A stretch of 64,000 nt of DNA. Source: Anas platyrhynchos (lineage: Eukaryota > Chordata > Aves > Anseriformes > Anatidae). The position numbers were made by a program, and so were the translations under genes. Where the stretch lies: NCBI RefSeq assembly GCF_047663525.1, contig NC_092602.1, forward strand, positions 2,983,501 through 3,047,500, written 5' to 3'. How positions within the stretch are numbered: the first letter of the stretch is position 1; each line of letters starts with the position of its first letter. Of this stretch, positions 45 through 27,111 are shown piece by piece. The notes beneath the pieces were generated by a model. The model had not been told where the DNA came from. It made no database searches and saw nothing but the letters and a program-made list of their open reading frames with translations.

Positions 45-181
45 CTGAAGTTGTACCCAGGTGAGACGGTGTGGGCAGTGTCCTTGTTGTCAAGGCGCCG
101 GAAGGAATATTTCGGCACGCAGTAGGAAGCAGCTCTGTCAAGGTTGCAGTCCCAGTTGATCTGCAGCCCCATGACTCCACC
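45..181 (-). CDS. P2RX4: P2RX4 coding exon 8 (last one in the window)
   Basis: 137 bp. Encodes [19 protein letters not shown], the YSFRRLD motif and SPGYNFR. The NFR triplet is a core part of the ATP site and is intact. Donor AG|GTAACG; positions 1-44 are the start of the next intron. Confidence 0.96.
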
Positions 182-3100
182 CTGCAGAGCAGAGGAGAGG
201 AGCTGGTGAGCAGTCCAAGAGCCTGAGTAGCCTAGCACAGGGCTCTGGGCTGAGCAGGACCCTGATCACTGGCTCATGATGCACACCCAGTCTTCCCCAC
301 TGCTACAGGAGAACACAGCCCCACCCAAGGCACCCAAGGCCAAATATTGCTAAGTAGAGCTGACTCTGCTCCCTCTGGCCAGGGCAGTTCTCCGTTTTGC
401 AGCTAATGCATGTCCCATGGCTCATGCCACCAGGCGGGGGGGATGATTACTTACTGCTCCTATCCTACATACCCAAAAGGTCTGCCAAATACCTCCACAG
501 CCATCTCCTGGAAGTTCTGCCCTGCAGCTTCAACTATTTTCCCTAGGCGAAAGATAGGGCAGAAGGGATCTGTCTTGGAGTCATAGATGCAGTTCTTGAG
601 GTAAGTGGAGTTGATAGTGGGGAGGATGTTTCGTCTATAGGGGAACAGAGAGAGGAGATCTGTTGCATCTTCTTCCAGTTGTCCAGCTCCCCTTTACTGT
701 CCAGGAGGCCAGGCAGCAAAACGCCTCGCACACTACTTACTTGGTGAAGTTGAATTTGGGATACCAAATATTGTTCTTCACCAGAATGGTGAAGTTCTCG
801 GCTCCTTGCAGAAATGCTGGCCTGCAAAACAACAGAAAAAAGTAAATAAGTTTCATTTATATTTTCACAAACAAGGTCTTCATCACTGCAGGGCCTTTGA
901 TGATAACCTCTTTAGCTTTTCCCAATAGTAATGCGTAAGGAAACATCATTGGTTGTGGCAGAAACCAGCTGTGTACTGCTGGCCTCCTCTCAGGAGGGCC
1001 ACCACAGAGTAAGAAGACAGAGCTCTCACTTGGGTACGTGATAGTCATCTTCCACAGGACACCATGCAAAGACTTCACAGGTCTTGATGCTGTCGTTGTA
1101 ATTTACACATTTCCCAGTTTGGATGCCTGGAAAGACATGCACATGGAGACATTCCCAAGGAAAAGTAAAGAGGTAGTATTTGCCCTGTGATGTCTCCTCA
1201 CTCTTTAAGGTGAAAGCAGTCTGCTCGGAAGGGAAGTGCCACTGTCTAATCCTCATTATTTTCCATTGCAACTTGTAGTACAATTTCAGAGAAAGAAGCA
1301 TTTTCCAAGTCAAATCCTCATCTATGCATGTGAAACTGCTTCATGGACTTAAGGTCTTGAAAAAACTCTCACACTGTTTACTAACTCACCAAAGCACACA
1401 TCCATCCAGTATCCACCCAACGCAGTTAAGCCCATCTGCTCTTCCCTGGAAGAAAAATGTGAGCTTCCTTTTCAGTTCTCTTAGGTAGGAAAGAATGAGA
1501 ACAAGGAGACTCAAGCGGAATGCTGCTTCCTTCACAGGAGAGTGGGCACAGCGCAGAGATATCACAACACAGAATGAAAGAGCCCTTGCAGCAAGTTTCC
1601 TACCGTTGCTGTGGGTGCTGACATATCCTGGAACACAGCTGTTGTTCTTGCTGCACTCTGTTTTATCATCTGGAAGCTGGACAGGAACAACAATTAAACA
1701 AAACTCCAAAACCATCCCTCCCCACACCACGTAGGATTAAAGCAGACCCTGTACCTACCTCTGGACATTGGCCCTGGGTCTGGTTTAGTGTGAATATCAT
1801 GTTGGTCATGACAAACACACTGTTCTCTTCCTGAGCATGCAAAGCAAGAAGGAAATTTAAGAGTGACAATACTATGCAATAGTATATCCACGGCACTGCC
1901 CCAAATGTCAAAATGTCTTTACTGACAAAGCTGAGATGGTCCTGCAGAGGGGGCTTGTTAAAGGAGCAAGATCCCACGAGTATCGCCTGATACCACTGCC
2001 TTTGGGCAGAGGAAGGAATGTGGGACTAGCAACCCCTTCTGTCCTCCCATTTAGCCCCTCCTTTACAATATGAAAACAGATCACAGAGCTATTCTGGGGG
2101 TTACAAGGCATGACCAGGAATAAAAATCCAGCTGCAAGCTTGTTCACAACTCTCACTTTTTTTTTTTCAGTATATCTACTGAATATTTGACCAGTCTTGG
2201 TTTGTTTCTGCAGTGAACACCACCTCCATTACTTTCAGATCTATATGAGTTGGGATCTGTTCTTTCCTCCTGCTCCATTAATATGCAAATACGATCACTC
2301 AGCCAAAAACTGGCTGAATACTATCACTTTCTGCACCACAACTGACGCAGACAGAGTGACCCACAACTAGCAGCTTGGCCACGTCTGCCAGCCCTGAAGG
2401 CCACGTACTTCCCACACAGCGCAGATTCCTGCAGACACACCGCCAATCAGTAACTACAGCAATACCTCCTGTTCAGTTCCGGATCAGATGAGTGGCAGGC
2501 TATTCCTTGGGCTTCTGCCAACAAATTATCTTTGAATTGTTTGCCTTTGAGAGTAAGAGGGAGGATGTGGTTATTGCCACAACTTTTTCCTGAAGTCTGC
2601 AAAATTCTCCTTCATATGCATACACACACACACACACACACTTTGCTTGAAACAAGCTTCCTAATCTGCTTTATTTGCTACATTCTCTTGTATAAAGGCT
2701 ATGCTGGAGCAAAAGCTGTTCCAGACCTCATTGGATTTTGGCAGAGCAGCAGCTGTTTCTTAGAAAACCCACCGTCTGCATGTGAAATGATTCATACCTG
2801 AGGAGGGATGACATAGTCAGCTACATCCCAGACCCTGGCTCCCAAGGAGGATGTGTTTGTCAGCGTTACTCCTTTCACCTTTGTGGTTACAGAACTGACC
2901 ACAGAGTCTGTTTCCTGGTAGCCCTTCTCCCACACAAAGACCCAGCTGCAAGATAGGGATTGCAAGAAAAAAATAAAGAAATCAAACCACACAGCACACA
3001 TCAGAAAACAGCTAAACATCATAAATTAGCACAGGCAGTGGGAATTTCACCTTTTTCCATGTGTAACCTGAAAAGGCAGGTCCATATAATTTCACAGTGA

Positions 3101-4533
3101 TTTGCTACAAAAGTCACAGGATCAGCCATCTCCCTTCTGTTTTTTTTTTAAGTGGTTTGTCAGTGTCTCATTACTGCATAATTGTATGTACGTCCTCCCA
3201 CTCCCACAGGTGAACATCAGTTCACAAGAGGGGAAACAGCACAGGGCTCTGACATGGTCTCCACTACTATCACCAAGCAAACGTCACTTTGACTCGGGGC
3301 AGTCAGCATGGCCATTACTGCTGTATAGGTGGTGGGTCTGGTCCACACCATCTATTTTTGGCTTTTTATTTAGGTATTAAACAAGAATAGGATGAAGTTT
3401 CCTTTCACCAGCTGCGTGCAGGAACGAGAAAGAGACAGAGAGTGCGCTGCAGAAACCCCCTGTTAGTGAGAGGAGCAAGGATGCAAGAAAGCAACTCTCA
3501 GGATAACCAGTTCATGACTTTTCCCAACTACATGCCTTAAATAATTACAGTTTTCAGGTTTCCACTGGCACTTACTGTAAAAGCTATACACTCACATCCT
3601 TTGCTGCCAGTGAAGGATCCATCTCCTCAAAAAGCATTTCAGGACAACTGGGAATTAGGTTAACTTTTACAGCTTACACTGATATTTCATATATTCTCAG
3701 ACTGCAGCAATCCACACACAAAGCACAATCTTTGCTCCTGTGACCAGGAAGGGCTGCCCTGGTTTTTCCTTGCTCCTATGGGCCAGGGCCACACCACAGG
3801 AGTAATTCCTGTCAGTAAAACATTGACCTGCTGCCTCTCTCTCATGGCGGGCTGTCCACCACCTGGTTGTCAGGTCTTTCCTCACAACACAACGCTCTTT
3901 GCCTCATAAAAGCTTTTATATGTTATAAAATGCTACCTGTGACCTGGCGACAGGTGGGAGGGAAAGCCACCAACCCCTCTCCAAACTTTACGCCATTTGC
4001 GTCCTTCTGAATAGTGATTTGAAGCAGCCAAGACCCAGTTACCGTCACCCACAGGCACACATCTGCCCTATTCCTGGAGCTCACCCCACATTTCTTCCCC
4101 CAAAACGCCTCTATCCCACACATTTCTTCCCCCAAAACGCCCCTATCCCACACGCTCCCTCTCCTCAGGCACGACCCCAGCCCTCCCCTCAGCGCCCCGG
4201 GGGTCGCTTCCCGCCCCTCAGCGCCTCCCTGACAGAACTGGGGACCGGGCAGCCGCCGGCTCCTTCCCCTCAGCCCCGGGGAGCCTCCGCCTTTGGGGCA
4301 GCCCCAGACCGACCCCTGCTGCCCCCTCAGCCCCTCGAGGAGCCTCCCGCCCTCCTCCCTCACAGCAGCCCGCCTCCCTCAACGCCCAAGCCCCCAGCTC
4401 ACCCGATCACGTAGGCGAGGATGGCGAGCTGCACCCCGCGGTTGACGAGCCCCACTTTGCGGCTGCGGATCAGGACGATGCGGGGGGTGTCATACTCGAA
4501 GAGAAAACTCTGCACGGCCCCGCACCACACCAT
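45..4533 (-). CDS. P2RX4: P2X purinoceptor 4, 5' part (coding exons 1-8 of about 12)
   Basis: Trimeric ATP-gated cation channel of plasma and lysosomal membranes. Eight exons give 881 coding bases (about 293 residues of a family norm near 385-390); splice phases join without a frame break, and every junction is GT-AG. The order is as in the family: short cytoplasmic N-terminus with the YDTPR motif at residues 14-18, TM1 at about 30-50, then the cysteine-rich ectodomain. The ATP-contact residues visible here are intact: Lys66 and Lys68 in TKVKG (human Lys67/Lys69) and Asn292-Phe293-Arg294 closing exon 8. Many N-glycosylation sequons are present (for example NTS, NQT, NNS, NDS, NFT, NST). The third lysine and TM2 are encoded by exons left of the window. 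The ATG lies in a strong Kozak context (GCCGCCATGG) inside a CpG island. It sits about 0.6 kb downstream of the probable P2RX7 polyadenylation signal, so the two paralogues are in tight tandem. Identification rests on near-identity to vertebrate P2X4 across all exons. Confidence 0.97.
493..634 (-). CDS. P2RX4: P2RX4 coding exon 7
   Basis: 142 bp. Encodes [18 protein letters not shown], the dorsal-fin and left-flipper region, and the [10 protein letters not shown] motif. Acceptor CCCTATAG, donor GAG|GTATTT. Confidence 0.96.
741..821 (-). CDS. P2RX4: P2RX4 coding exon 6
   Basis: 81 bp. Encodes the segment with [18 protein letters not shown], where the conserved Thr of NFT contacts the ATP adenine in P2X structures. 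Acceptor TTTTGCAG, donor AA|GTAAGT. Confidence 0.96.
1030..1126 (-). CDS. P2RX4: P2RX4 coding exon 5
   Basis: 97 bp. Encodes the head-domain core [19 protein letters not shown] and the AWCPVE motif, with three more conserved cysteines. Acceptor CTTTCCAG, donor AA|GTGAGA. Confidence 0.96.
1604..1676 (-). CDS. P2RX4: P2RX4 coding exon 4
   Basis: 73 bp. Encodes the start of the head domain with two disulfide cysteines (TECSKNNSC) and ends in THSNG, which is split across the intron. Acceptor TGTCCAG, donor G|GTAGGA. Confidence 0.95.
1759..1830 (-). CDS. P2RX4: P2RX4 coding exon 3
   Basis: 72 bp, phase 0 on both sides. Encodes [18 protein letters not shown] and the following conserved Cys-Pro-Glu. 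Acceptor GCTCAG, donor GAG|GTAGGT. The size matches the family exon. Confidence 0.96.
2622..2641. repeat. (CA)n microsatellite
   Basis: About ten uninterrupted CA dinucleotides in the region of P2RX4 intron 2. Likely length-polymorphic. Confidence 0.9.
2798..2945 (-). CDS. P2RX4: P2RX4 coding exon 2
   Basis: 148 bp. Ends TM1 ([14 protein letters not shown]) and carries the first ATP-binding loop with both lysines intact (TTKVKG). Acceptor CTTGCAG, donor CAG|GTATGA. It gives a useful internal contrast with the P2RX7 copy of this exon, which has lost the first lysine. Confidence 0.96.
2946..4402 (-). other. P2RX4: P2RX4 intron 1
   Basis: The largest P2RX4 intron in the window. It grades from the GC-rich CpG-island shore (3' of exon 1) into ordinary AT-rich sequence. 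No exon, repeat family or RNA gene was recognised in it. Confidence 0.8.
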
Positions 4534-6522: not shown

Positions 6523-6993
6523 TCATTCTATCTTAAAACCAGTATAGTTGCCATCTGCTTTGGGATAAGTACTTCTAATCACCCCTCTGCAGCAACTTGG
6601 GATGACAGCTCTGTCTTCCAACTCAAAAGAGCCAAAACGCCAGTGAACATACTGCTTGTAAGCAGCATGACGCAGCTGATTGCTGGTATTGTCACCTTGC
6701 AGGTCCAGAAAGGGGTCTTCGTAGAGAAGGGCTTTATTCAGGGTTTCTCTGGACAGCACCAGCTTCTTAAACCAATAGGTGGTTGTGATGCACGGCCCAT
6801 CTGTGCTGCGGCAGCAGAGCTGCTCGTGGAACTTCTGCGTCAGATTGCATTGGCCACAGCAGCACCACTTGGGGCACTTCGGAGAACGGGTGCTTTGCAT
6901 TAGACAACTAAGCTGAGATTCTTCAGTGTCATGGTTCTCATTGGGCTCCTTGGTGAAGAAGCTGCAAGGATCACTGAATTTCACAGGGTGATT
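6523..6993 (-). CDS. P2RX7: P2RX7 coding exon 13 (C-terminal ballast domain and stop)
   Basis: 471 coding bases ending in TGA. It has [56 protein letters not shown] and GNYTGFK. This exon is the best conserved part of the gene against mammals, including most zinc-ligand cysteines, although a five-residue gap removes one cysteine of the human block (SHRC). Acceptor TTTGCAG. Confidence 0.95.
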   Translation of the reverse strand, partial: NHPVKFSDPCSFFTKEPNENHDTEESQLSCLMQSTRSPKCPKWCCCGQCNLTQKFHEQLCCRSTDGPCITTTYWFKKLVLSRETLNKALLYEDPFLDLQGDNTSNQLRHAAYKQYVHWRFGSFELEDRAVIPSCCRGVIRSTYPKADGNYTGFKIE

Positions 6994-9900
6994 CTGCAAA
7001 GCAATTCCCAACATAAATTAGATGATAAAGCATTGCTGCTGTTTCATCCATCTGCAGAGAGAATTTACAACAGTGATCCTCACCACTGGGTCTTTCGTTT
7101 GACACAGCACAATAAGTATAATGATGATAGATCAGCAGATCTGGAGGAGGATTATCTTTCTGTGTTGCCAACGCCCACCCTTGCAAAATCGAATTGACAC
7201 CTTACAAGTTGTTTCAACACCACCACACTCCCACTAGCACATGCCCACTACAGGAAAGCAGCAGTTTTTAGCTGACTCTAGAAAATACATCCTCTGGTCA
7301 CAGGACTTACTAACTTTAGGGGGGCAATACAAATCCATTTTTAGTCACTCAGGATCTAATCTAGAAATATGGGGAAGGGGAAATCCAAATCAGTTTGAAA
7401 TGACATTCCTTTCTGAAGAGGGAATCCCGAAGGTTAAGTGTCTGCCTTTACCTCAAAAATGCTGCCTTCAGCATCCTGCAAGCTTGTTTTCAGAGGCCTC
7501 TTTATCAAAATAACATGTGGCTTATCAACATAGGACACAAGCATCACCTGTAGAGCAGAAGAAATTAGCACTGTCAGCTGGAATAGTTACCTAGAAAGCT
7601 GGGGATATAGCACAGTTTTGCAGTCTGTATGCTGACAACAGTTCCCTGCAACTGTGTGCTGCAAGAGTAGATGTATCCCAGTATCTGGGATAGCAAGGAC
7701 ATGGGCAGCAGCAGGGACAGACAAAGCTAAGGGGAAGAGAGGTTATGGAACTAACTGTAGCTAACTGCAGGAGTGCAGTTGTGCAGGGCCTTTATGTGGA
7801 GAGTTCATCTTTGCCTTTCATTAAAAAACATTTGTCTAAAATGCTGGGGAATTAGTAGGTGTACCCAAGAGTAATAACTGGTAATGCCTTGAAAAAGAGG
7901 AAGAGGAAATTCAGGTTGGCAGGGAAGAGCCTTTGAGCAAAGCCCTCTTTGTAGATAACCCTTCTGCGACCTCCTTCCCCTGCTTTAAAGGGTCACTACT
8001 CCCAGCGTGTTTCTCTGATAGAGATGGTGTTGCTCTGCTCTGCCAATGATCTATGTGCAGAGCCCACTGCAGCCATGCAGTGCACAGCTCCATGGAAGCT
8101 ACCTGGAGATTCTCTGGCATGAAAAGGAGGAGGCAGTTCCCTTTGCCAACTCCTTTATGCACTGGATCCCGCAATCCCTCTCACAAAAATCTCTGATCTC
8201 CTAAATCCACAACTGCAGGCTGCACACAGCGTGCAGAAGAACAAAGCCCAAGCAGTGAAGCAGGAATGAACCACACAGCAATTACGAAGGGTTTGATCTG
8301 TGGCATTTGTGTGTCTACTGAACAGCAATTTGCATTCTTTACCTGTTTTGGCTCCAGCACAGTCTCATACTTCTTCCTGATTATATTATCACAGAATTGT
8401 ATTTTCCAGCAGCCGGAGCAATTGTATAAGGAAAACAAGATTTCAATGGCAGTAAAAGCCTGCATAAGAAAGAAAAGCAAGTAGTGATTCCACTTTTTTA
8501 ATGAGACTGGAGTTCTCCAGAACTGGCTCTATTAACACAAAAACCAAGTCTCTCACCAAACCAAAATAGGTGATTGTGGATCCAATGAATGTGAAGAGTT
8601 CAACACTTCTAAATTTTCCACCCTAAAGGAAGCATAAAAGAATATCTGGGTAGCAAGATCTATAACCACTCACTCATCTGAATGCCATTTCTCTTTTTGT
8701 CCTTTTACAATGATTCATCCATCCAATCCTAAGATTACATAAACTATCTCTAACACTTTGCAGGGGAAAATAAACAATTTGAGAGGGAAACAGCGGTGAC
8801 ACACAAGGTTCACACAAGGTTCATGATAGACAAGATACCTGTTATTCTTTGTCTAAACAACAATCCTGTCTCTCTCAACCCTGCTATGTCATTCTCAGCT
8901 TTGTTCTCCTATGCCAGTTGAGTTTAGATCTACTAATCTGACAGGACTTCCATTCCAGAATGATGGACAGAAGAGGGGAAAGGGGAATATGGCAGACGCA
9001 GGGCTAAAGAAATAGTAAGTTTTCTTCTCTCCTCCCTCCACAAAGAAAAACAATTGCATTTACTGTGCCAAAGACGAGGACATCAAACCGTATTCCATAG
9101 GCTCTGAAAAGTGTTCGCTGCTCCTTTCCATTTTCTCGCTTGTAGTACCTTGCAAATCTGCAAAAGAACAAATGAAGATCAGTGTGGCTTCCCTAGGGAA
9201 TACAATGATACAAAAGTGCAGAACACAAAAGGGGGCATAGTTTCTTTTGCCTTCTTTCTTACAGCCTTCTGAAATGCTGGAATAAGCATTCAGGAACAGT
9301 TCATGAAGCCAGCTTCATCGCTGGCAGTCTAAACTAAATTAATACACATGTATGTAGAGATTTAAGCAAATTAAAAATCTAGCTAATGTCCAAGGAGTGT
9401 TTTGCTGTCACCATTCAAATCAGAACCTAAAGCTACAGAGGGAAGTTCAACTATGGGTAAAGCAGTTAGAAAACCCTAGCAAGAATATATGAGGAACTGG
9501 CAATGGCAAAAGTGCCCATGTTCTTAAGTCTTTTAATGCTACATTTTCCACTACCTGCTCTGAACTCCTGAGGACACTTCAGCATGCTGGATTATCACTC
9601 ATTTCCAACTCCTTAAGCAGCAGAGAGTGCCAAGAATCACATTGGCCTTTATGAACTTCCAGTTTCTTATTCTATCAACAACACGACCCGCCTGATGCAC
9701 AGCTCACATCAGCTTATGGATAAATAGTCACAGAGCATGCAACAATGAGATCTTTTTCAAGCCTGACAATGAAAAGCTGGCAGTACAGACAAAATCATTA
9801 CATTAAACTGAAAGACTTACTAAAACACACAATGGCACTAATTCTCAGCTACTGAAAACAATACCGTATGTCTTTTGCCTCAGACTTGCTGTCAGGATTT

Positions 9901-12900
9901 AAAATGCTGTGTTGTTCTTGACTGGTTTACTTGAGTGATCTCTAAATCCTCTTCTCCTTCATTTAGATAAATAATTTGAATTGCAATTTGCTGAGCTAAA
10001 GGGCTGCAAGGTTAGTTCCGTGGGTGTCAGATACTCACAGATCATTCTGTCATTGTTAATCAAAGTTTGTTTTTATAGTTGGCTGCCTGTTCTACTACAA
10101 GAAGAGTAACTGTGTTTAAGAGGATATGTCTAGCATAAATACTATCAGCTCAGCCTTCTGATTTCCAGTGTCTTGGTTTACTCATTCAGATTATAGAGAC
10201 ATCTAAAAAAGAAATACTTTTTCCTCCTTTCTTTACTCTTTGGGTTCAGTCCCTGCAGCTCTGCTTTGCCATCTTGATGCTAACAAACCAGCCCAGAGCA
10301 AGCTTTTACTTGATTCCATTCTGTATTTCGCATTCCCTTTGCATTCTACTCCAAGCTAAGTTTGTCAGACTTTTAGACTACTCTTAATCAGTTTCCTAGA
10401 TCATTTGCTTCTCATTCACAGAGATACAATTTAAAATTCTCTGAAGGAAAGTCACTCAGAAAAACACAGCATAATGTGTTCTGCTTTCTTCTTACTTGCA
10501 CAGATATGAAATACCCTTTTTGCTTGTGCTGAATGGTTCCAAAGTCTATGACCAATGCATGTTTTACCAGCCAGCTCTTAGCCTCCAAAGCTTGCAGGTC
10601 ATTTAGGCTTTATTTTAAAGTTTTCCTAACTGTTTTCAGGATCAGAGGTTTTCTCTAGCCCCCATGGTAGAGGTTATTTCATATTTCTTCTTGATGGCAT
10701 ACAAGCTTTCTTCTCTGTAACAGCTTTGTGCTCAGAGATGACCTGTTGGGAGCTTTCTTGACCACTGTCTGAAGCTTTGCTCCCTTGCACCTCAAGTAGT
10801 TATTTTCTTTCAGAAGGCTTACATCTTCCCATTCAAGTCTATCACAAAATTTCCTCTGGAACTGGGCTAAAAGCAATAGGACTCCATGCAGACAGGTTAT
10901 AACCTGCCTAGAGTCCCCATCTGGACTGCAGGGGAAGCAGCGTTCTATAACCTGTTTCTTAGGGTCTTTTCAAAGTTTTCTTCTGCTACTGATCTCTGCT
11001 AGCTTTGGGATGCTGGGCTGGATGGACCTCTGGTCTGATAGTATGTTACATTCTTATGAAATGCCACACTGATGAATAAAAGTTTTATTGAAATATATTT
11101 ATTGTAGGATCATTTCCTTTGGGTAATTCTACTGAAATCAGCAGCCGTTTATACAGGTTTGCATACACCAGCTCAACACTGTGGCAGAGTTTGTGCACAT
11201 TCTTCCCTGAAACACCCATGGCTGTTTTAATGGTATTATGTTCAAACTATTCATCATCCTTCAACTTTCACTGTTTTCACTTTTTGAATTGCTGCACAGA
11301 CCTACTCTCCACCTCTTTTTTAAATTTTGCAGACATCAGAGAAAGGTTTTCTTTTGCCAATAAAACCCCTTGATTAACAGCTGCAGAATCAGGCCATCTG
11401 GATGTTGTCTGGTATCCTGTACACTCTCCCAGCAGGCTTGCCTGTGTTCTCAGATGAAGCTCACTTCCTGAGTACTAGAGTTTTACTTCCTTTCAGCACA
11501 CATTTCAACTGCACCACAGCAAAATAATCTTTCCACTGGTATTTTGATGCTTAAAAAACAGGATTTCGGGCAAACCCATTCTTGGCATTTTGACCCTAGC
11601 TGTTAATCTGATACTAATATCCTCAAAACTACTCCAGTCTTCCTCCAAAAGCCTAAGAAATCCCCTTTGCCTGCAGAAGTCTATTGAATAGAAACATTGC
11701 TGGCCTCAGCCTTGTAGAACTGTCCCACTTTTAACTTGTGTTCTCCCCCATCTCCTGTCTGTGGTTGTCAGCTCTGAGGGAACACCTATTTGTTCCTTGT
11801 TTGCACAGCTCCAGCAGAACACAGCTTTGACGTATATTGGCAGCTCTTTGACAGCTCAGACACTCATGCTAGCATCACCGTATGAAAACCCACGATAATA
11901 ACCAAAGTCAAAAAGTGCCGTTACACAAAAATTTTGTCCTAGATCTGAGGGATAACTTCAATTTTAAACACGCTGATATGCATTTGATAAATTGTGTAAC
12001 TATTTAGAACTAGAGTCACAACAAGATTTTTTGTTTGAATTTCTCGTAGGTCTGCTGTATGAACACAGAACCAAATGCTCTAATTTACTTTTAAATAAAT
12101 CTTGATTCAGTGAACTGTAGGGTTACCCAGATGTTAGCAAAACATTTTATTTTATTTTATTGCCTTAGGAAACTCACAAATTTAGGTAGTTTAAAGCTTC
12201 AATTGCCATATGGTGGAAGCTGCCCAAACTATTTTCTGTGTTAGTTCCCAGAACACTTGTGGAAAATTTCTAGGCCTTTCAACACAGAAATAAAACCTCC
12301 TACCATACAACCATGCTCATCTGGAAAATGACCATGATGATACAACTGCAGTAAGGACATGAAGTTAAGTTAAGGACATGAGTACTGAAGCAAAGCAGAA
12401 TCAAATATTCAGTTGTTCCAAGCTGTCATTCTCCACACCTCATCACATCTTCGCTTCAACTCAGAAAACACCTTACTTGCTTCATCTAACATTTTTTACC
12501 TGTAGCTGAATCCAGGGTATTGGGTTCTTGTTTTGCCATCAAGGCGGCGGAAACCATACTCTGGACTGCAGTAGTAAGACCAGCTGTCTAAATTACAGTC
12601 CCATTTAATCTCAATGGCAATTACTCCTCCCTAGAAACAGAAAAAGTAAGTGTGAGGACTAGTGTGATTGCTGCCTTTTCTGAACTTTTTAATGCCAAAC
12701 ATAAGCCACTATTTGTGCCAGTCCGACTTTTGGACAGTTTTTTCCTGAAGCAACATGATTTATGATGTGCTTTGGTAGAATTGAAAGGTGATCATGAGTG
12801 ACAGCCTTATACAAGGCCTATTTAAATGAAAGGTGGTACAAGGGCCTCTACAAGCTACAGTAATACAAACCAAATAGTATCAACTCTGTCAACGCGGTTT

Positions 12901-15900
12901 CATTCTGTGAGATGATTAACGCATTTATTTTTTAAAATGTGAGGTTATGTTGGTTCTCAAACAACCTGTTTCTAAACCAAGAACAATTCCATTATATGGC
13001 AGACAGGAAAATATGCAGGAAGAAAAAGAAAGAAAAGTTTTCACACCGAGCATAACAAAGAAAGTAGTATCACAGACCTTTACTGCCACCTCTGAAAAGT
13101 TCTCTTTTGCTTCCTGAAGGATATCTCCCAGACGGAATATTGGACAGAGAGGGGAAGTTATCTTGTTGAATGTGCAGGAAGAATTGAAATTTGGTGAAAT
13201 ATTTTGTCTGTGAAGAACACATAGAGTTGTTTAAAATTAAAAACAAAAGCTGGAGCAGCTATAAATACAGCTAAGGGCCTTCACTTTTACTAGAAGCTGT
13301 GTTAAACGTGCTCAGATTGTACTTACATGAGCTTTTGTTTTCACATCTACCAGATCTATATTTCCCTAAGAGAGATCTACAAATCAAGATCAATTCTTTA
13401 CTCTTTGAATATATCACAGGCAAAATTTACCTGAGTAAACTAAATATTTTTCACTTTATAATCTGGACCACACAACTGTTACATTGTACTTTAGTTGTTT
13501 TAGCCCAACATAAACCAGTATATCTGAACGAGCGATTTTATTGTTCTGTGCCTGGGAGGCTGTGATCCCAAGCTCTTCTATTTCTCTCAGTTCCTGAAGA
13601 ATTAATAGGACTAAAGACTTAACAGCTGTTGCTCATGCAGATAAAGCCCTGAAGACAGCCTTTCTGAGTAAAGAAGGTGCCAATTTACACAATCCTTTCT
13701 TTAGAGCACAACCACTCACTCTTCAGAAAGCATTTGGGAATGTTTGCACTTACACGGTGTAATTAAATTTTGGGAAGTGAACGTTGTTCTTTATTAGCAC
13801 TGTGAAGTCTTCAGAACTCCTCAGAACTGCAGGCCTAGAAGAGAAACATCAAATGAAGTAACTTCTTGTACTTAAATGCATCAATTAATGCTATGCTAAT
13901 TTATTACCTGGAACATTGTCAGTAGGCAGAATACTTTGCTGAGAAAGAGATTGAAAAGCAGAGTTAAGTGACTCAGGGAACCAAGAAAGATAAAGGTCAT
14001 TCTCTTAGTTTTAGATATAAATTGTTCTCTCCCTCTTGCTCTTGCTTGTGTGGGCTGAGCCTAAATGTGTGCTACATGCAGCTAAAATATGAGCTCACAA
14101 GACTTCTCGTATAACTCTTGCTACAGAATAGTAGTAAGAGCATATACCATTTGACAGCTGATTATTTCTGCACAATGACAAAGGCAGTTTCATTGCTGGT
14201 CCCTGCAGACAGGTGGCCATTTATGCCAGAGCTGCACAGCTAGTAAGAATATAAGAATGAGACATGCTCTTATTCCTAGAGGATGTCTCTGGAAGTCAGG
14301 CATCAATCACATCATCAAAGGCTGTTCTGCCTTTCTAGAAGATAGCGGTTTGAGGGCTTACCCTGCAGACTGTGGGGAGACAGTGGTTTGTGTCACTAAA
14401 TATGTTGGTGAACTGCAAACACCATGGGAAGCAGGCTGCCAGTCCTACCCTTCCTCAAAAGTCATTTATCTGAAGCTAATGTGGCAGGAAAGAAGGCACT
14501 TTCCTACAAATTGCCAGCTGAGTTAACCTTGGCCTAGATTGCATGAGACAATCTCTGCTACACCCCAGGACTTGCCTGGGCTATAGAAGAGAAACAGATG
14601 CAATTTTTAGCTATATATGTCGTGCACAGGGACAGCGCTGGACTGGAATATTCACACAGCTCTGTTTTGAAAATGAGTCAGGAAAATTTTAATTTTCATC
14701 AGGACAGCCATTCCAAGGGGTGTAAACAGTCTTCAAAGCAGTCATCCATATCAAGGACAGTGCTTCTAAGCATGCAGTATTTTTCCTATCATTGCACTTT
14801 GAGCAAAGCCTCTGCATCTGTGATGACTAGAAGCACATTAGTTGGGTGACAGTTTCCATGAAGGACATCTCAGAGCATCTCCTAAACAAAGTCAATGAAT
14901 GAGAGACATGGCTGCAAACCAATTTAATACTTGCAGATACTATCTGGACATAAAAGCTTCTGAAGAATTTCAGTGTATAACAGTCAAGACATGAATAATG
15001 TATGTTAACCGTTAAAGAGATAAAAATGAATGAACCTATAATGTGGAAGTGTCTGCAACTCATCCACTGGGAGGCATCTGAAATCTGATCCAAAGATCTT
15101 CTGGAAAACGTGGTGTAAACACCTATCCTTGGGCCAGCTAATCTGACAGCTATGCCCTGTTTGAGGCAGAAATGAACAATCAAAAATAAAAGAATCTTCT
15201 TGCCAAAATGCAATAGCTTTGTTTGGCTCCTTTGTTCAGCTCCAGCCATAACTAACGGGAAGGAAAAGGAGTACTCCTGTATAGCTCATGAAACTTATCT
15301 TTCAAAAGAATTTGGACAATAAAGACAATCATGGGTGTAACCAAAACCCAACATTTCTCCCTCAGTATCTCAACCAGACGGCAAAACTTCCTGGGCTCTG
15401 ACCTTTCTCTTATATATTGTTCTGGTAGCAAACAAACACTCAGCTTTGCTATTTAGCAATTCCTCCTTTTTTCCTTGCCAATGAAAATTGTGAAGGAACA
15501 TTTTACATCAGAGGTTTGGATCAAACCTCTCATCCATTATTTTTGGTCCTTGGTAGTGATCAACTACTGGCACTGTAGAGGACGATTAGGAAACAAGACA
15601 GAATGCGTCAACTGTGCAATGTAATAAACGACAAAATTCCCTTTGGAACACACGGCAGTAAGCCTACACAACACGACATTTGGAAATGACTGGCAGTCAC
15701 TGAGACTTTATCAAAAAAACCCTAAGATTCCAATAGCTCAGGAAGCTCATGCATATCTTTCCAGGATGCTGTATGAACAGTAATATCCTTCCTGTTTCTG
15801 GGCAAAGCCTTTTTTCAGATCACAGCTCTGTCTGCAAAAGTAATGGCACTTCCTTTAAAGAGCTGAAAAAATCTCAAAGTTGCTGCAGGAAGTGTTGTGA

Positions 15901-18900
15901 GCCCTGGATGGAACCTGGCAGTAGAAAAACTTCTCAGTCTCTGACATAAAGAAAAGATGGGATATATACACAGAATTGTGCTTGTTATCTTTTAAAAGCA
16001 GTGAGTTAATGGAAGTGGTAATTGACCTGGTTTCTTACATGTATATTTCAAAAGCTGGTTGAGAGAAGCTAAAACTGATTAGTCATCCACTCTTAAGTCT
16101 TAGAGTGTAATTTCCAGCATCTCTGTAGAAATCAAAATGATTATACAATTTCTTCATGCTTTGGCTGATATAGAAAGAAAATGGACCAGTTTCTTCTTGG
16201 AACACTGCACACTTATGCGATTACAGAGAAAGATGGCCACAGGTCTCCTCCATTCCACTCTCTGGGTCACAGCAACATCGTTCCCCAGAGTCTTTTTCCT
16301 CCAGTTTTCTTCAGCTCACTATTATGTATTGCCAGCATTGAGGTTTTCATCACCTGTCTAGAAGGATGAAGATGCTGTTCTTCAGTCTGGAGAGGACCCC
16401 CAAATGCTACTGTGCAGCACAGACAACCAATCCAGTACTACTGTTCTGAGTGGTGGAAGCAACCTTGCTGTGGTAAATGCACCCATAAGGAGCTTCTACA
16501 CCTTAAAGCACTGAGCCTGGCAGAAGAGAACCCCAAGTCAGGAAACCTATCTCACACTTGCCTTGACATTTGAATTCATGATCTAAATGCCTCTAGTGAA
16601 CTCAAAATGCGCCTATGACATCTAAAATTGTTTTTGTGGAAGCTGCATGATGTTACAAACTGGAGGCTTCGGTTTTACTGCACAATCAGCAGGACAATTG
16701 TAGAAGGAATTCATTTAAATAGAGTAAGCATTAACAGTATGGCTATGAAGAAAATACCTGTTTTACAAGAGATCTGTACATGCCTGAGCAAAGTGATTAT
16801 CCTAAAATTGTATGACTCTGTCAAAGCAAATCCTTTTTTTTGACAAAAAAAAAAAAAAGGTAGATTTTTTACTTACACAGGGGGGGTTTCCTCCATTGGC
16901 ACAGGGCACCATGCCGTGACCTCACAGGTTTTAAGAGTTTCATTATACTGCACACATCTTCCTGTTTGAACTCCTGTAGAGAAAGCATTTCTCATTCAGC
17001 AAACACAAGAGTTTTGCACCATATAGAGAGTTTCTACATGGCAGTGGATTCCTCCTCAAATGTAAAGCAGAGGTTTTGACATTATAAATTCTTGCAGCTT
17101 TCTGTTCAGGATAAAATCATGGTCCTGCCACACATCATCAATCCTTATTTAGCCCTTTACTTGGGTCAACAATGCTTGCTATTGTTTGGACTGAGGATGA
17201 AGTACTTTCCTGCAAAGTTTTCCATTAAGTTACATATCTGAGTCTTGGTATAAACTGAGAAATTAGCCGTTTCAGTCAACTGAATCAATTAACAATCAAT
17301 TAAACAATTAACAAGTTTAATTCAACAACATAAGCAAATTAAACAAGGATATAAAGGTAAGCAGAAAAACTTAATTCTTTCTACGTTCCTGGAGAGTCAG
17401 CATTTTTTGTGAGTGCCCTGTCTTTACCAGCTAAAGCACTAATTCAGCCAGAAGCCTGAATTCAGGAATCCCAGCACTACAAAGAACTCACATAGCTGAT
17501 GAAAACTCTAAGATGTCTTCTGGACAACTAGCCCTCAAAAAAGGACAGATGTCATTGTCTTATTCTGAGAACTAATTATCATGGGGATGTTACAGACCCT
17601 TCAAAAAGATCCTGTAGCCACTCCCCTTGCTGAGCAGTCATGGACTTCAATGGGAGTGACTGGAGTCTGGCCTTAATTCACATCACGGTCTGCACTCCTC
17701 TTCACATTTGCCCTTCCTCAGCTCCCTTTCACTGTTTCTCTTTTTAGAAAGGGCATATAGAAAATGGTAAGAACTCTGTTTTGTCGTTTCAAAAACAGGT
17801 TATCAGATATCTCTCAGGATTCTGTATTGTTCTACTGCAATTCTTCTCCAAGTTGGAACTTGTACGTTCTGCACTGGTCAATAATGCAACAGAAGGTAGT
17901 ACCCACGAACAATATTTCAATCTGAAAATGCCATTTACCTACCATTACTGTGGACATATGCACTCCCGTTTTCACAGGACTTGTCTGTAGAGCAGATAGC
18001 TTTGGCAAAGGGAGCCTGAAAAAATGACAGAAAAGAGCAACATAAATATATTCCTCTCCATACCTATGTAAAAAGTCTTTCTTAACTTCAATGCAAAAAT
18101 AGTAAATAATAAGAAAATAATGCAGAGGAAGTATAATCCTTATTTATTATTATGCTTATAACAAGCACAAGGCTAAGCTAGCTGAAAAAAAAAAAAGAGG
18201 AAAACAATATTTTTCTCACTTATAATAACACTTTCCTTTATTATGTCCTTTCCTGTTTTTTGTACTCTTTTCTGTACTACTAGGTGCAATAGATCTCATA
18301 CTGGACTATTTCTTTGTTTACTAACAGCTCCATAAACTTTTGCCAGTGAAAGTTAACTTGTGTTTAGGAACTATACTGCAAAGTCCCACTTCTAGGCCAG
18401 CCAGATGAATGAAGAGGAGAGCTGCAGCAGACTACCACATTTGGGCTAGAGAAAGGAAGGAAGGGAACACGTAGGAATGAGCACCATACCAGCAGAGAAG
18501 CTGATAGCACTTCTCTAACTCCATCACCCCTTCAGGTTTTTCTCAAGACCAGCAGCAAAGCCAGAGAAGCTGCACTGGCCTGAATGTCACCACTGCCTGA
18601 AAGCGATGCATGTATGTTTGGCAAAGTCATTGCTACAAGGCAAAGTCACAACTGACAACTGAATCCCCAGGAAACACCAGAGTAGAGGAAAGAAATGGAG
18701 CAATTAAAATAGATTTTGCATGCTTTCTGTTGAGATACAAGCATTAAAAGCAGCAGTATTTGCTTGCACAGGATGGTCCCAAGGACAGTCCACTCTTTTA
18801 CATCAACATTAATGTTTGCTCCTAACTACTGTCTATTTGTATTCAATACCATCATCCTAAATATACATTACAAAATATATATATATATACATTTACCTCA

Positions 18901-21365
18901 GGGCATCTGCTTTGAATCTGGTTTTCTGTCTGAATGACGTTGGTCATCACGAAAAAAGAGTCTCTTGACTACATGGAGAAGAGAAAATGAATCTACATGA
19001 AATTTCACAGACTTTTTTCAGACCTCAGTCACTCCAGAGCATTACCTGGAAGGACAGTGAGGCTGTTTCTGCTCTACCACCCCCCAACAGACATTAAAGT
19101 TCAATCTGGCTTAAACAGGAAAAGCCAGGGACATCATCAGGGCATAAATGAGCAACCAGGGCAAAAAGGCCCCGATTTTGTATTTTTTAATCTGGCATTG
19201 CAGCCAAGAAAAACGTGCTGGCACTAACTAGTAATGATACTATTGTGTTTAGTACCACTATACTGGAATAAATCTTTTGATTTTGTAAAAATTCATAACA
19301 AATAGCATCACAGAATTATCATAAAAGAGGATAATCTTTTCCCTTGTACCGGGGAAGAAAGGGTAGATTTGGTTTGGTAGACTGCTGTCTCACATGTAAA
19401 GTCTCCTTTAATGTTGCTGCTCATTCCAGGAGAGACATACCAGGAAAAAAAAAAAAACAGATGCACTAACAGAAGTTGAATATTATGCTGACATTAAATT
19501 AAGACTTGCCTGCATTGGTATGGCATATTCTGCTGTATCCCAGATCCTGCTGACTGCATGAGCCACTCCCTTCACACTAGTGCGAACTGAGCTGGTAACT
19601 TCTTCCTTCTCCTGATAGCGCTTGTCAGCGATGAGGGTGTAACTGGCCAGATTAAACAGAAAGAACAGGTACACTCATAAAAATAAAATTGGGTCAGTTT
19701 TTTTTGTATCATTTTTGGACAAAATGCACTGCAAGATAAAGTCAAGCATTTTCAAGTAACTGAGAGCCGTTTGGTGTGAGACTGATGCATCATCTGGGCC
19801 AAAGTTTCCCTTGGATTCACCTTTGCAATGTTCAGCTTTGTCAGGAATGAGTTCAAATACACACAGAGAATTTCTATTTTCACCGCTTAAATGCTATAGA
19901 CAGCATTAGGTCACATCCTGGTTCTTCAGATGCCATTTGTGAAACACCAACTAACTGCAAGGGGGCTTAACGTCATCCAAAAACTTTTGCCCATGGTGCA
20001 TTACTCTACTTAGACTTTGATCTTTTGTGTCACAAACAGTAGTGTCCTCTCTATATTTGGGATTTATATTTTTTTTGGGGGGTGGAGAGCTTAAAATACT
20101 TAGTCTTTAACTTTCCAGAGTGAGTACTCTTGCATGTCATTCTGATTGCTTTAAAAATCTTGTCCTAATGCTTTTACTTCCTCGCGCATTGTGTGTGTTA
20201 ATGATAGAAAGTCATCTCTGTTTTTATGCTGACAGGGAAGTCATTTCACTCATCTAATTCATGAAAGAACTGTCAACTTTGAAAACTACTGTATGTTCAG
20301 AAGGTACTTTCCACTCTACATAAACGTACCATAAAAGGCTTTATTTGACAAACAAACTGGCTGCATAGCCACAGGAGCCAGCACCATTTCAGTTTAACAA
20401 CAGACTCTTCTGGAGGGGATAAAAGTTTCTGAAGGACAGAAACTGAAAGCAACTGATCAATGCTCCTCCATTTATAGTGTCTACTATAACAGTGTTTCAG
20501 CCTTTTCCTTCAGGAGAATGGTACTTTGGGATAATCGTGTGTTTGGAAATTGGCAGTAGGAGCCCAGGTCTGAGCAGCAGTAGGTGCCTGCATTTCCTGC
20601 CAAATTGATTCTTACTGAGATTGCGATCAGTGTGCTCAATGTTCTGGCCTGTTGCCCTCTCATAAGAAAGAAACCAACCATCTAAATTTGCAGACTTTGT
20701 TCAGCAAAGACTTATCACTGAAAACAGCCCTACTTTGGGAGCAAAGAGGAAAATCTGCCCTTTAGAGGCAATCAATTACTGCATATTCCTAGAACACCTT
20801 ATTGTTCTTGAAATCTGCTTCAAGGGCTAATTGGCTATTTCATCTGTTAGGTGTATCTAACCCTAGATAGGAGACTCTGGAACAAGATCTAATCTCAGAA
20901 ACACTGGTGTAAATCTGAGATTTTTAGTGCAGGTAGTGTGGTTTTAACAGAACAAAAATGAGAACCACACAGCAATAAATGAAACTGAAAGCATTTGTTA
21001 GTAGAAACCCAGCTCTGTCCTAGTAACCCCACCCTGTTAAGTAACCTCCTGTGCCCAACTCCCACCACCAGGTTCCCACTGCCACATCCATCTTCCAAGA
21101 ACAGCCCAACACCAAAACAATGGTCTTGAGTTGCTGCCACAGAACTCAAAGCACTGAAAACCACGTTGCAAGCCAGACAACCTGCGAAACAAGCAACATT
21201 TCTTAGTGTACAACACCATGTCCCATCACCCTGCACTTACCAAATATATATGGCAATAACTACATAAATGAACCACTTTGCACATACACATCCAACGCTC
21301 CGAAAGCGGATTGATTTTGGAGAGTCATAGTGAAATGGATCCTTCAGACAGCCGCACGAGACCAT
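6523..21365 (-). CDS. P2RX7: P2X purinoceptor 7, complete coding region (13 exons) with altered ATP site
   Basis: Thirteen exons join in phase to 1686 coding bases, 561 residues plus TGA (human is 595). The start Met aligns with the human start and has a strong Kozak context (GCAATGG). Layout: N-terminus with YDSPK, TM1 about 26-46, cysteine-rich ectodomain, TM2 about 320-345, a shortened cysteine-rich anchor, then the long C-terminal ballast domain unique to P2X7 (about 406-561; WCCCGQC, LCCRS, VHWRFGS, PSCCRG, YTGFK). In P2X7 this domain binds zinc and guanine nucleotide and couples the channel to macropore and inflammasome responses. Oddities: Ser64 in place of Lys64, Ser279-Tyr280-Arg281 in place of Asn-Phe-Arg, Arg299 in place of Lys311, Arg317 in place of the Asp of GGKFD, a 12-residue gap in exon 2, an 11-residue gap in exon 11, and a GC-AG second intron. 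No stop or frameshift is seen, so it reads as a functional but diverged gene, not a pseudogene. Confidence 0.95.
7452..7547 (-). CDS. P2RX7: P2RX7 coding exon 12
   Basis: 96 bp, phase 0/0. Encodes [20 protein letters not shown] and [12 protein letters not shown], matching the human VSFVDESHIRMV and RSLQD segment. Acceptor CTCTACAG, donor GAG|GTAAAG. Confidence 0.9.
8343..8459 (-). CDS. P2RX7: P2RX7 coding exon 11 (end of TM2, shortened cysteine-rich anchor)
   Basis: 117 bp. Encodes [19 protein letters not shown], then [13 protein letters not shown]. The palmitoylated cysteine-rich segment of mammals is about 11 residues longer and has more cysteines. Acceptor TTATGCAG, donor CAG|GTAAAG. Confidence 0.92.
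8557..8622 (-). CDS. P2RX7: P2RX7 coding exon 10 (start of TM2)
   Basis: 66 bp. Encodes [10 protein letters not shown] and [11 protein letters not shown]. The near-invariant Asp after GKF is Arg here, and the gate serine (human Ser342) is Thr. Acceptor CCTTTAG, donor TTG|GTGAGA. Confidence 0.92.
9064..9157 (-). CDS. P2RX7: P2RX7 coding exon 9, with Lys311 to Arg
   Basis: 94 bp. Encodes [20 protein letters not shown] then [11 protein letters not shown]. The family TLIK(A/V)(Y/F)G becomes TLFRAYG, replacing the phosphate-binding lysine by arginine (AGA). Acceptor TTTTGCAG, donor ACA|GTAAAT. Confidence 0.93.
9158..12499 (-). other. P2RX7: P2RX7 intron 8
   Basis: The largest P2RX7 intron (3.3 kb). 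Apart from the probable old retroelement relic near 10.9-11.06 kb and a short TTTTA run near 12.15 kb, it holds no recognisable exon or RNA gene. Open frames within it lack splice context and homology. Confidence 0.75.
10900..11065 (+). repeat. Ancient CR1/L2-type LINE or SINE tail relic
   Basis: The stretch ending in GGATGCTGGGCTGGATGG, then ACCTCTGGTCTGAT and TTCTTATGA, resembles the conserved 3' tail shared by old amniote CR1/L3-like LINEs and their dependent SINEs. It is diverged and lacks target-site duplications that I can see. Boundaries are approximate. Confidence 0.45.
12500..12630 (-). CDS. P2RX7: P2RX7 coding exon 8, with NFR replaced by SYR
   Basis: 131 bp. Encodes [27 protein letters not shown] and YPGFSYR. 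The last triplet replaces the family NFR, so the Asn and Phe of the ATP site are lost and Arg is kept. The flanking YPG and FRRLD motifs fix the alignment. Donor AG|GTAAAA. Confidence 0.93.
13078..13207 (-). CDS. P2RX7: P2RX7 coding exon 7
   Basis: 130 bp. Encodes [15 protein letters not shown] and [17 protein letters not shown]. Human has TRN at the start of this block; here it is VQN. Acceptor TTCACAG, donor AAG|GTCTGT. Confidence 0.92.
13754..13834 (-). CDS. P2RX7: P2RX7 coding exon 6
   Basis: 81 bp. Encodes the segment with [19 protein letters not shown]; the Thr of FTVL that contacts the adenine base is conserved, so the loss of ATP contacts is not total. Donor GT|GTAAGT. Confidence 0.93.
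13835..16876 (-). other. P2RX7: P2RX7 intron 5
   Basis: Three-kilobase intron with no recognised gene, RNA or repeat family. Several 60-140 codon open frames occur but lack splice signals or protein-like motifs. A 13-A run precedes the exon 5 donor region. Confidence 0.7.
16877..16973 (-). CDS. P2RX7: P2RX7 coding exon 5
   Basis: 97 bp. Encodes [19 protein letters not shown] and TAWCPV, the head-domain core with three conserved cysteines. Acceptor CTCTACAG, donor GT|GTAAGT. Confidence 0.94.
17943..18015 (-). CDS. P2RX7: P2RX7 coding exon 4
   Basis: 73 bp. Encodes [18 protein letters not shown] and the VHSNG end, with the two head-domain cysteines. Acceptor TTTTTCAG, donor G|GTAGGT. Confidence 0.94.
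18897..18968 (-). CDS. P2RX7: P2RX7 coding exon 3
   Basis: 72 bp, phase 0/0. Encodes [19 protein letters not shown] and the conserved RCPE end. Acceptor CATGTAG, donor GAG|GTAAAT. Confidence 0.94.
19510..19642 (-). CDS. P2RX7: P2RX7 coding exon 2, with Lys64 to Ser and a GC donor
   Basis: 133 bp. Encodes the end of TM1 and the first ATP loop, which reads VRTSVKG where P2X receptors have TKVKG: the first lysine is an AGT serine codon, while Lys66 remains. Twelve residues just after this loop in human P2X7 are absent. The exon ends at CAG followed by GCAAGT, a consensus GC-type donor. This is the homologous exon end, and no nearby GT donor gives it. Confidence 0.93.
19643..21240 (-). other. 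P2RX7: P2RX7 intron 1
   Basis: 1.6 kb intron. I see nothing in it beyond unremarkable AT-rich sequence. Confidence 0.75.
21241..21365 (-). CDS. P2RX7: P2RX7 coding exon 1
   Basis: 41 codons plus two bases: MVSCGC, then [10 protein letters not shown] and the start of TM1 ([13 protein letters not shown]). Its length equals human exon 1. The frame stays open upstream, but no upstream in-frame ATG aligns with the family. Donor TG|GTAAGT. Confidence 0.93.
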
Positions 21366-26691: not shown

Positions 26692-26706
26692 TCGGAAGTG
26701 ACGTCA
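26692..26706. promoter_or_regulatory. ETS/CRE composite motif
   Basis: TCGGAAGTG runs directly into TGACGTCA: an ETS (GABP-type) core abutting a full palindromic cAMP-response element, a frequent pair close to CpG-island start sites. Confidence 0.65.
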
Positions 26707-26725
26707 TCGCCCCGGCCTGGCAACC

Positions 26726-26739
26726 GTTACCATGGTAAC
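26726..26739. promoter_or_regulatory. IFT81: RFX X-box
   Basis: GTTACCATGGTAAC is two perfect inverted RFX half-sites with a two-base spacer, about 230 bp upstream of the IFT81 start codon. RFX factors (RFX2/3) and FOXJ1 drive intraflagellar transport genes through such sites, so this is the expected ciliary control element. Confidence 0.8.
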
Positions 26740-26967
26740 CGGGAGGCGCTGAGGGGAGGTGAAGGCCCAGGCGGCCCCGGCGCCTCAGGGCGCTGCACCC
26801 CGAGGGTCTCCGAGGGTCCCGGCCCTTCCCTCGGAGCCGTGGGGCTGCCAAAATCCTCGCTGAGGTGGTGCCTGGCCCCGCTGCCCCTGTCAGCCCTCCC
26901 CCGGTCCCGCCGAGGCCTCCTCACATCACCTCCGGCCCCGCCGCCGAGGCTCGGCCCGGCCGCCACC

Positions 26968-27111
26968 ATGAGTGACCAAATGCAGTTCATTGTTGAGAAG
27001 CTCAATCAGGAGCCCTTCAGGAAGAGCTACAATCTGATCACGTTTGACTCCTTGGAGTCCGTGCAGCTCTTGCAGCTGCTCAGTGATGTGCTGGGGGAGA
27101 TTGACCCGAAG
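26968..27111 (+). CDS. IFT81: IFT81 coding exon 1
   Basis: 48 codons, MSDQMQF to EIDPK, the start of the calponin-homology-like domain. Donor AAG|GTAAGG. Confidence 0.97.

Follow-up and report, generated by a model that had tools for sequence, protein, structure and literature searches.

The 64,000-nucleotide stretch of the duck (Anas platyrhynchos) genome analysed here (contig NC_092602.1, positions 2,983,501 to 3,047,500; the window) carries a gene for a P2X7 receptor whose ATP pocket departs from the pattern of its family. Six ATP contacts are canonical in P2X receptors, K64, K66, T189, N292, R294 and K311 in the rat numbering used below (PMC8410900), and not all of them are present here. 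Is this receptor misread, decaying, turned to another ligand or still opened by ATP, and do its changes belong to this duck alone?

The duck P2RX7 gene and its ATP pocket

P2RX7 was found on the minus strand in 13 coding exons, and the joined reading frame is unbroken throughout, as originally predicted. The span first assigned to it, 9064-19642, covers exons 2 to 9 only. The features, in window coordinates, are as follows.

21365..6523, minus strand: P2RX7 gene, 13 coding exons, 561 codons plus stop, identified by Pfam and a 98% match to Anas acuta P2X7
21241..21365, minus strand: exon 1, N-terminus and first part of TM1
19510..19642, minus strand: exon 2, carrying R62, S64 and K66, followed by the GC-AG intron 2
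19582..19584, minus strand: Arg62, codon CGC
19576..19578, minus strand: Ser64 for Lys64, codon AGT, motif TSVKG
18968-18897, minus strand: exon 3
18015-17943, minus strand: exon 4
16973-16877, minus strand: exon 5
13834-13754, minus strand: exon 6
13801..13803, minus strand: Thr178 (rat Thr189), adenine contact, retained
13078..13207, minus strand: exon 7, its last codon Lys237 (rat position 248)
13078..13080, minus strand: Lys237 (rat position 248, chicken Lys236), neognath-derived candidate phosphate contact
12500..12630, minus strand: exon 8, carrying Ser279 and Tyr280 (rat N292 and F293)
12505..12507, minus strand: Ser279 for Asn292, codon AGC, motif FSYR
12502..12504, minus strand: Tyr280 for Phe293, codon TAC
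9064..9157, minus strand: exon 9, carrying Arg299 (rat K311); its first base completes the Arg281 codon (rat R294)
9103..9105, minus strand: Arg299 for Lys311, codon AGA, motif TLFRAYG
8622-8557, minus strand: exon 10
8459-8343, minus strand: exon 11
7547-7452, minus strand: exon 12
6523..6993, minus strand: exon 13, most of the ballast domain (P2RX7_C)
45..4533, minus strand: P2RX4 exons 1-8, the gene continuing from exon 9 beyond the window; control gene with its canonical contacts retained

Pfam recovered both the P2X_receptor domain (PF00864; 405.8 bits against a curated cut-off of 27) and the ballast domain P2RX7_C (PF20478; 232.4 bits). The best database match among those listed was Anas acuta P2X7, and the protein groups with named P2X7 in the tree; P2RX4 adjoins the gene (4533-45). 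All ten conserved P2X ectodomain cysteines are present (positions 119-269), and eight ballast cysteines are retained (rat 477, 479, 482, 498, 499, 506, 572 and 573). The cysteine anchor of exon 11 is strongly reduced, with C373 kept, W at 374, Y at 388, and 363, 371 and 377 absent. In mammals this anchor keeps the receptor from desensitising, and its strong reduction in bird P2X7 may make bird currents desensitise more; the motif is described as not conserved across vertebrates (PMC7016195). The start of IFT81 (Pfam IFT81_CH, 58.9 bits) was seen at about 26698-27204 on the plus strand, with transcription pointing away from P2RX7.

Good splice sites had been claimed for the whole gene. This is right for the other introns, all GT-AG, and wrong for intron 2, which is GC-AG (CAG/gcaagt after 19510). 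The Anseranas P2X7 protein model reads through this donor position (MQASLNS), which suggests that the GC donor is common to waterfowl and misleads annotation.

Three of the six canonical contacts are changed in the duck receptor (K64S, N292S and K311R; S64, S279 and R299 in duck numbering) and three are kept (K66, T178 for T189 and R281 for R294). The original prediction had counted four changes; T189 is retained, and F293Y is a further change at a conserved neighbour within the NFR motif, outside the six contacts. The residues themselves had been named correctly, including the surviving Lys66 and the arginine of the triplet, and the codons AGT, AGC, TAC and AGA, read directly, appear to lie one base away from codons for N, N, F and K, respectively. 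The further pocket residues L191 and K193 are unaltered.

The non-canonical donor of intron 2 might point to an artefact, be it a sequencing error, a mis-spliced model or a decoy paralogue. Against this, the residues are identical in the independent Anas acuta protein, S64, S292 and R311 recur in Aix, and the full frame is open. When the duck genome was searched exon by exon with the P2X7 protein, 26 matches came up, in every case at P2RX7, P2X4 or other P2X genes; with the best candidates scored, neither a second P2RX7 copy nor an alternative canonical exon, named in the prediction as a possible refutation, was seen among them, and both were rejected as explanations. An artefact is thus extremely improbable, in agreement with the earlier judgement on the region.

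The neighbouring P2X4 served as a control. Within the window it retains the equivalents of K64, K66, T189, N292 and F293, as had been predicted, and its exon 9, just past the window, retains that of K311. A regional sequencing problem was rejected, since P2X4 is normal and Anas acuta and Aix share the P2X7 residues. In bird P2X4, K64, K66, N292 and F293 are present in 18/18 rows, and Lys311, R294 and T189 in 13/13, 14/15 and 15/16 scorable rows, respectively. K64, K66, N292 and K311 have their equivalents in each of the duck's six other P2X genes, one of which reads NYR in place of NFR.

Pocket residues across birds and other vertebrates

The prediction had treated the changes as those of one lineage and proposed a check of their fixation across birds and other vertebrates. 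We aligned 134 rows, comprising duck P2X7, the chicken crystal sequence and 132 proteins from two homology searches (the best 120 of 730 matches, and the best 120 of 871, 12 of these new). Grouped by source names, with row P0002 placed by its position beside the ducks, they comprise 58 neognath birds (the group of almost every living bird, ostriches and their relatives apart), 6 palaeognaths and 70 others (crocodilians, turtles, squamates, tuatara, amphibians, mammals and one sturgeon).

Lys64 occurs in none of the 46 scorable neognath rows, which have S (32), N (10), T (3) or Q (1, in the damaged vulture row), with a gap in the other 12, vs 6/6 palaeognaths and 67/67 scorable others. Asn292 is absent from all 57 scorable neognaths (H 28, Y 13, S 12, Q 2, I 1 and R 1) and present in 6/6 palaeognaths and 69/70 others. 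The two positions beside and beyond these are mostly retained in neognaths: Phe293 in 45 of 58 and Lys311 in 51 of 58. Among the 134 rows, Tyr293 is found only in the duck and Anas acuta, and Arg311 in the duck, Anas acuta and Aix galericulata, that is, only in ducks among the rows examined. Glu311 appears in Calidris pugnax (ruff), Spheniscus humboldti and Alca torda, and Leu311 in Chrysolophus pictus, whose row looks mis-spliced at that position. The losses of K64 and N292 are therefore shared by all scorable neognaths, and among the rows examined only K311R and F293Y are as narrowly distributed as the prediction supposed.

Two charged residues are concentrated in neognaths. Lys248 is present in 55 of 58 neognaths vs 6 of the 76 other rows; outside neognaths the position holds Glu in 6/6 palaeognaths and Gln (60), Lys (6) or Glu (4) in the 70 others. 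Lys248 stands alongside a retained Lys64 in 6/70 non-bird rows, so that its gain does not strictly depend on losing Lys64. Position 62 is Arg in 40/46 scorable neognaths and His in 6/6 palaeognaths and 62/67 scorable others. The Bambusicola row has an inserted stretch at residue 248 (R or Q according to the alignment) and for this reason looks mis-annotated.

The palaeognath receptors (ostrich, emu, rhea and tinamous) resemble that of the duck as avian orthologues with a short loop after residue 66, but keep all six canonical contacts and have Glu248 (6/6). Mammalian P2X7 (human, rat and mouse) has in common with the duck the P2X fold, the ten ectodomain cysteines, the ballast cysteines and K66, T189, K193 and R294; unlike the duck, it keeps K64, N292, F293 and K311, has Gln248 in most rows, and has a longer loop after residue 66 and a fuller exon 11 cysteine anchor. 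In TM2, Glu replaces Asp352 in 47/54 neognaths; the 75 scorable rows from outside this group all have Asp. At the pore gate, Ser342, described as the narrowest part of the open pore (PMC8410900), is Thr in the duck, Anas acuta, Aix and P0002, and Ala in chicken.

Constraint and possible decay in bird P2X7

A tree was built from 79 rows (56/58 neognaths, 6 palaeognaths and 17/70 others; Sarcoramphus and Chrysolophus left out) without columns 62, 64, 65, 248, 292, 293 and 311. Neognath P2X7 forms one clade (SH-aLRT 100, quick method). The loss of K64 and that of N292 take one change each on this tree, placing both on the neognath stem, and both positions keep changing among neognaths (9 changes at 64 and 14 at 292 in the tree as a whole). 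K311R is a later step within ducks (Anas and Aix), Lys being retained in the goose-like P0002 and in Anseranas.

We defined as conserved any column identical in at least 97% of non-neognath P2X7, which gave 141 columns (ectodomain 93, TM2 9, ballast 37, N-terminus/TM1 2). Neognaths keep 82 of the 93 ectodomain columns at at least 90%, and the only two lost throughout are 64 and 292, both ATP contacts (hypergeometric p 0.0035, which rests on two columns and is only a rough guide because the sequences are related). They keep 35/37 ballast columns, 3/9 TM2 columns at at least 90% and 0/2 in the N-terminus/TM1. The duck itself changes 8 of the 141 columns: K64S, E171P, N292S, F293Y and K311R in the ectodomain (5/93), S342T and D352E in TM2 (2/9), Y400L in the ballast (1/37) and none in the N-terminus (0/2). 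Four of the five ectodomain changes are at the pocket positions 64, 292, 293 and 311, and duck P2X7 outside the pocket is thus constrained. With so few conserved columns changed and an open frame, a pseudogene was rejected, as the prediction had argued. Rows were compared over 117 ectodomain and ballast columns, namely those that at least 90% of neognaths conserve too; broken columns number 0/117 in the duck, 0/117 in Anas acuta and 1/111 in Aix. On these sequence comparisons, duck P2RX7 is conserved except in the pocket and at two positions of TM2.

Neognath ectodomains are more diverged from alligator than those of palaeognaths (median distance in P2X7, 0.36 in 58 rows vs 0.28 in 6; in P2X4, 0.23 in 16 vs 0.20 in 2), so some relaxation in neognath P2X7 is possible. 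Carried further, this would mean that neognath P2X7 is losing importance and that the pocket was the first part to go. A global omega of 0.71 for bird P2RX7, together with positive selection, has been reported (PMC4870793); the continued turnover at 64 and 292, the weaker conservation of TM2 in neognaths, the decay-like changes in the vulture, gannet, stork, seriema and penguin rows, and the lack of any passerine P2X7 among the matches listed would also fit. Nevertheless, the 117-column set, although chosen for its conservation in neognaths, is unbroken at scorable columns in the duck and 22 other of the 58 neognath rows, position 64 stays S, N or T in 45 of 46, and neognath-wide loss has reached 2 of the 93 ectodomain columns only, both of them ATP contacts. 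We therefore consider relaxed selection an improbable explanation of the pocket changes.

Other birds differ from the duck in this respect. Broken columns of the 117-column set number 8/111 in Spheniscus, 9/111 in Ciconia, 10/116 in Cariama, 11/88 in Megadyptes, 13/99 in Morus and 16/109 in Sarcoramphus, the Ciconia, Cariama, Morus and Sarcoramphus rows being labelled low quality by the source. These rows (P0068, P0090, P0122, P0126, P0072 and P0125: king vulture, seriema, stork, gannet and two penguins) break 7-15% of the conserved columns, a level expected of genes that are in decay or poorly annotated, and by sequence P2X7 looks degraded in several Neoaves. Bambusicola (11/113) and Chrysolophus (11/116) look like annotation errors. 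Among the best 120 matches of each P2X7 search, none carries the name of a passerine, pigeon, hummingbird, crane or hoopoe; the matches listed in the P2X4 search do include clusters represented by such birds, the passerine-named ones having 204, 94 and 13 members, some of which may come from other birds. No entry in the three match lists, two for P2X7 and one for P2X4, is named for a parrot or a hawk. The protein match lists suggest that P2RX7 may have been lost in several Neoaves.

The loss of K311 takes four changes on the tree, and this repetition raises the question of a switched ligand, in which ducks and the lineages with K311E, the ruff above all, would prefer another nucleotide or an anion. 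The ruff row breaks 1 of 117 columns, so its charge reversal at the γ-phosphate contact sits on a largely conserved frame. However, K311E is known from one predicted protein per species, and Calidris pygmaea has K. The razorbill row (P0085, Alca torda) breaks 0/107 columns, but 6/6 scorable conserved TM2 columns differ, through either exon mis-annotation or real damage, and we do not count it as an intact K311E receptor because of this change. Given its broken TM2, and given the 8 of 111 columns broken in the penguin, both of these K311E rows may be decaying or mis-annotated. Furthermore, no alternative ligand is known and T189 is kept. A change of ligand is therefore very unlikely.

ATP gating and a probably remodelled pocket

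The prediction proposed that the receptor is poorly or not gated by ATP, uses another ligand or acts mainly as a subunit or scaffold. If the pocket substitutions did impair gating, the receptor would have such a subunit or scaffold role or would act at very high ATP only. Mutagenesis elsewhere lends this some weight. Lys64 has been described as the central phosphate ligand in the P2X family, and rat P2X7 is no longer activated once it is replaced by alanine (PMC8410900). In human P2X1, K68A, N290A and K309R cost >1800-fold, 60-fold and 25-fold in ATP sensitivity (PMC3874471), and K313R in P2X4 costs >3 log units and K308R in P2X2 1.5 (table of PMC2954318, the log units taken from matching entries). 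The duck adds K311R on top of K64S and N292S.

The receptor of the chicken, the closest relative in which P2X7 has been tested, stands against this proposal. Full-length chicken P2X7, which has T64, S292, I293 and Lys311, gives ATP currents in HEK cells that are blocked by TNP-ATP (PMC5638823), with an EC50 for ATP of 3.96 μM in 2 mM Ca/1 mM Mg (PMC10762375). The loss of K64 and N292 thus does not stop gating in the chicken background, and the six-contact set is no exclusion criterion for the P2X family, because an accepted chicken P2X7 lacks two of its members. The chicken sequence (PDB 5xw6; XP_001235163 in PMC5638823) is 78% identical to duck P2X7 over 321 residues and, like it, has a residue other than Lys at 64, Ser292, Lys248 and Arg62; unlike the duck, it has Lys311, Ile293 for Tyr and Thr64 for Ser. 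In the duck, K66, T189, L191, K193 and R294 are all unchanged, and the changes at conserved ectodomain columns fall almost entirely in the pocket. For these reasons we regard poor or absent gating as unlikely, and the proposal, as drawn from the substitutions as such, is not supported. No recording of duck P2X7 was found in the open-access literature, in which the published bird recordings found are those of the chicken orthologue.

We think it probable instead that duck P2RX7 encodes an intact, constrained receptor whose triphosphate site was remodelled once, on the neognath stem, with ATP gating kept. The pocket looks rebuilt rather than broken, because chicken P2X7 with the same losses opens with ATP. 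On the neognath stem, Lys64 would have given way to a small polar residue (S, N or T) and Asn292 would have been lost, while Lys248 and Arg62 were gained. ATP would probably be held by Lys66, Arg294, Lys or Arg311 and Lys248 instead of around Lys64. The gained Lys248 is the residue that touches phosphate in the chicken crystal, where the phosphates of TNP-ATP contact Lys236 (248) and Lys298 (311) and Thr64 contacts the adenine (PMC5638823), and phosphate binding may accordingly have been relocated towards it. Arg62 would be a second gained charge, two places before 64 on the same strand. By analogy, the duck receptor may work like that of chicken, and K311R, which keeps the charge, would shift its sensitivity without abolishing gating.

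Several observations count against parts of this remodelling. K311R and F293Y are absent in chicken, and by comparison with P2X1, P2X2 and P2X4, where comparable changes are costly (at least 25-fold for changes of the K311R type), K311R may weaken gating in the duck. Conservation is weaker in neognath TM2 and N-terminus/TM1, and the duck has S342T and D352E. Lys248, and perhaps Arg62, may compensate for the loss of Lys64, but this role is weakened, though not rejected, by three points. The contact was seen with an antagonist in a truncated crystal construct that binds TNP-ATP and gives no ATP current (PMC5638823). In human P2X1, Lys249, which corresponds to neognath Lys248, sits next to the ATP pocket and takes part in PPADS binding, yet K249C leaves ATP sensitivity unchanged (PMC6102130); P2X1, unlike neognath P2X7, keeps the canonical lysines, and Lys249 is dispensable there for ATP sensitivity. 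Finally, Lys248 and Lys64 occur together in the six non-bird rows mentioned above.

A stronger version of the remodelling can be put forward tentatively, as a possibility less likely than remodelling itself: neognaths would hold ATP in a second, non-canonical way, K64, which the family is regarded as unable to do without, and N292 having been discarded on the stem and the phosphates being extended and held by Lys248 and residue 311. Later changes at 311 (R in ducks, E in the ruff, perhaps others) would then have shifted agonist preference or sensitivity again. Against a strong form of such relocation, the pose of TNP-ATP in chicken P2X7 is described as U-shaped in one source (PMC10762375), where another gives it fully extended phosphates (PMC5638823).

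No earlier report of the neognath-wide loss of K64 and N292, or of the changes at K311, was found in the open-access literature; Thr64 in chicken had already been noted, in a passage that leaves its significance undecided (PMC8410900). Neognath birds, lacking Lys64 in a receptor that in chicken is sensitive to micromolar ATP, offer a natural experiment on the rebuilding of ATP gating. The phosphate pose of TNP-ATP in chicken P2X7 may be a neognath trait rather than a general feature of P2X7 or of antagonists. High ATP concentrations are said to be required by mammalian P2X7 (PMC10947395), and the receptors of other neognaths, should they match that of chicken, would respond at lower concentrations than those of mammals.
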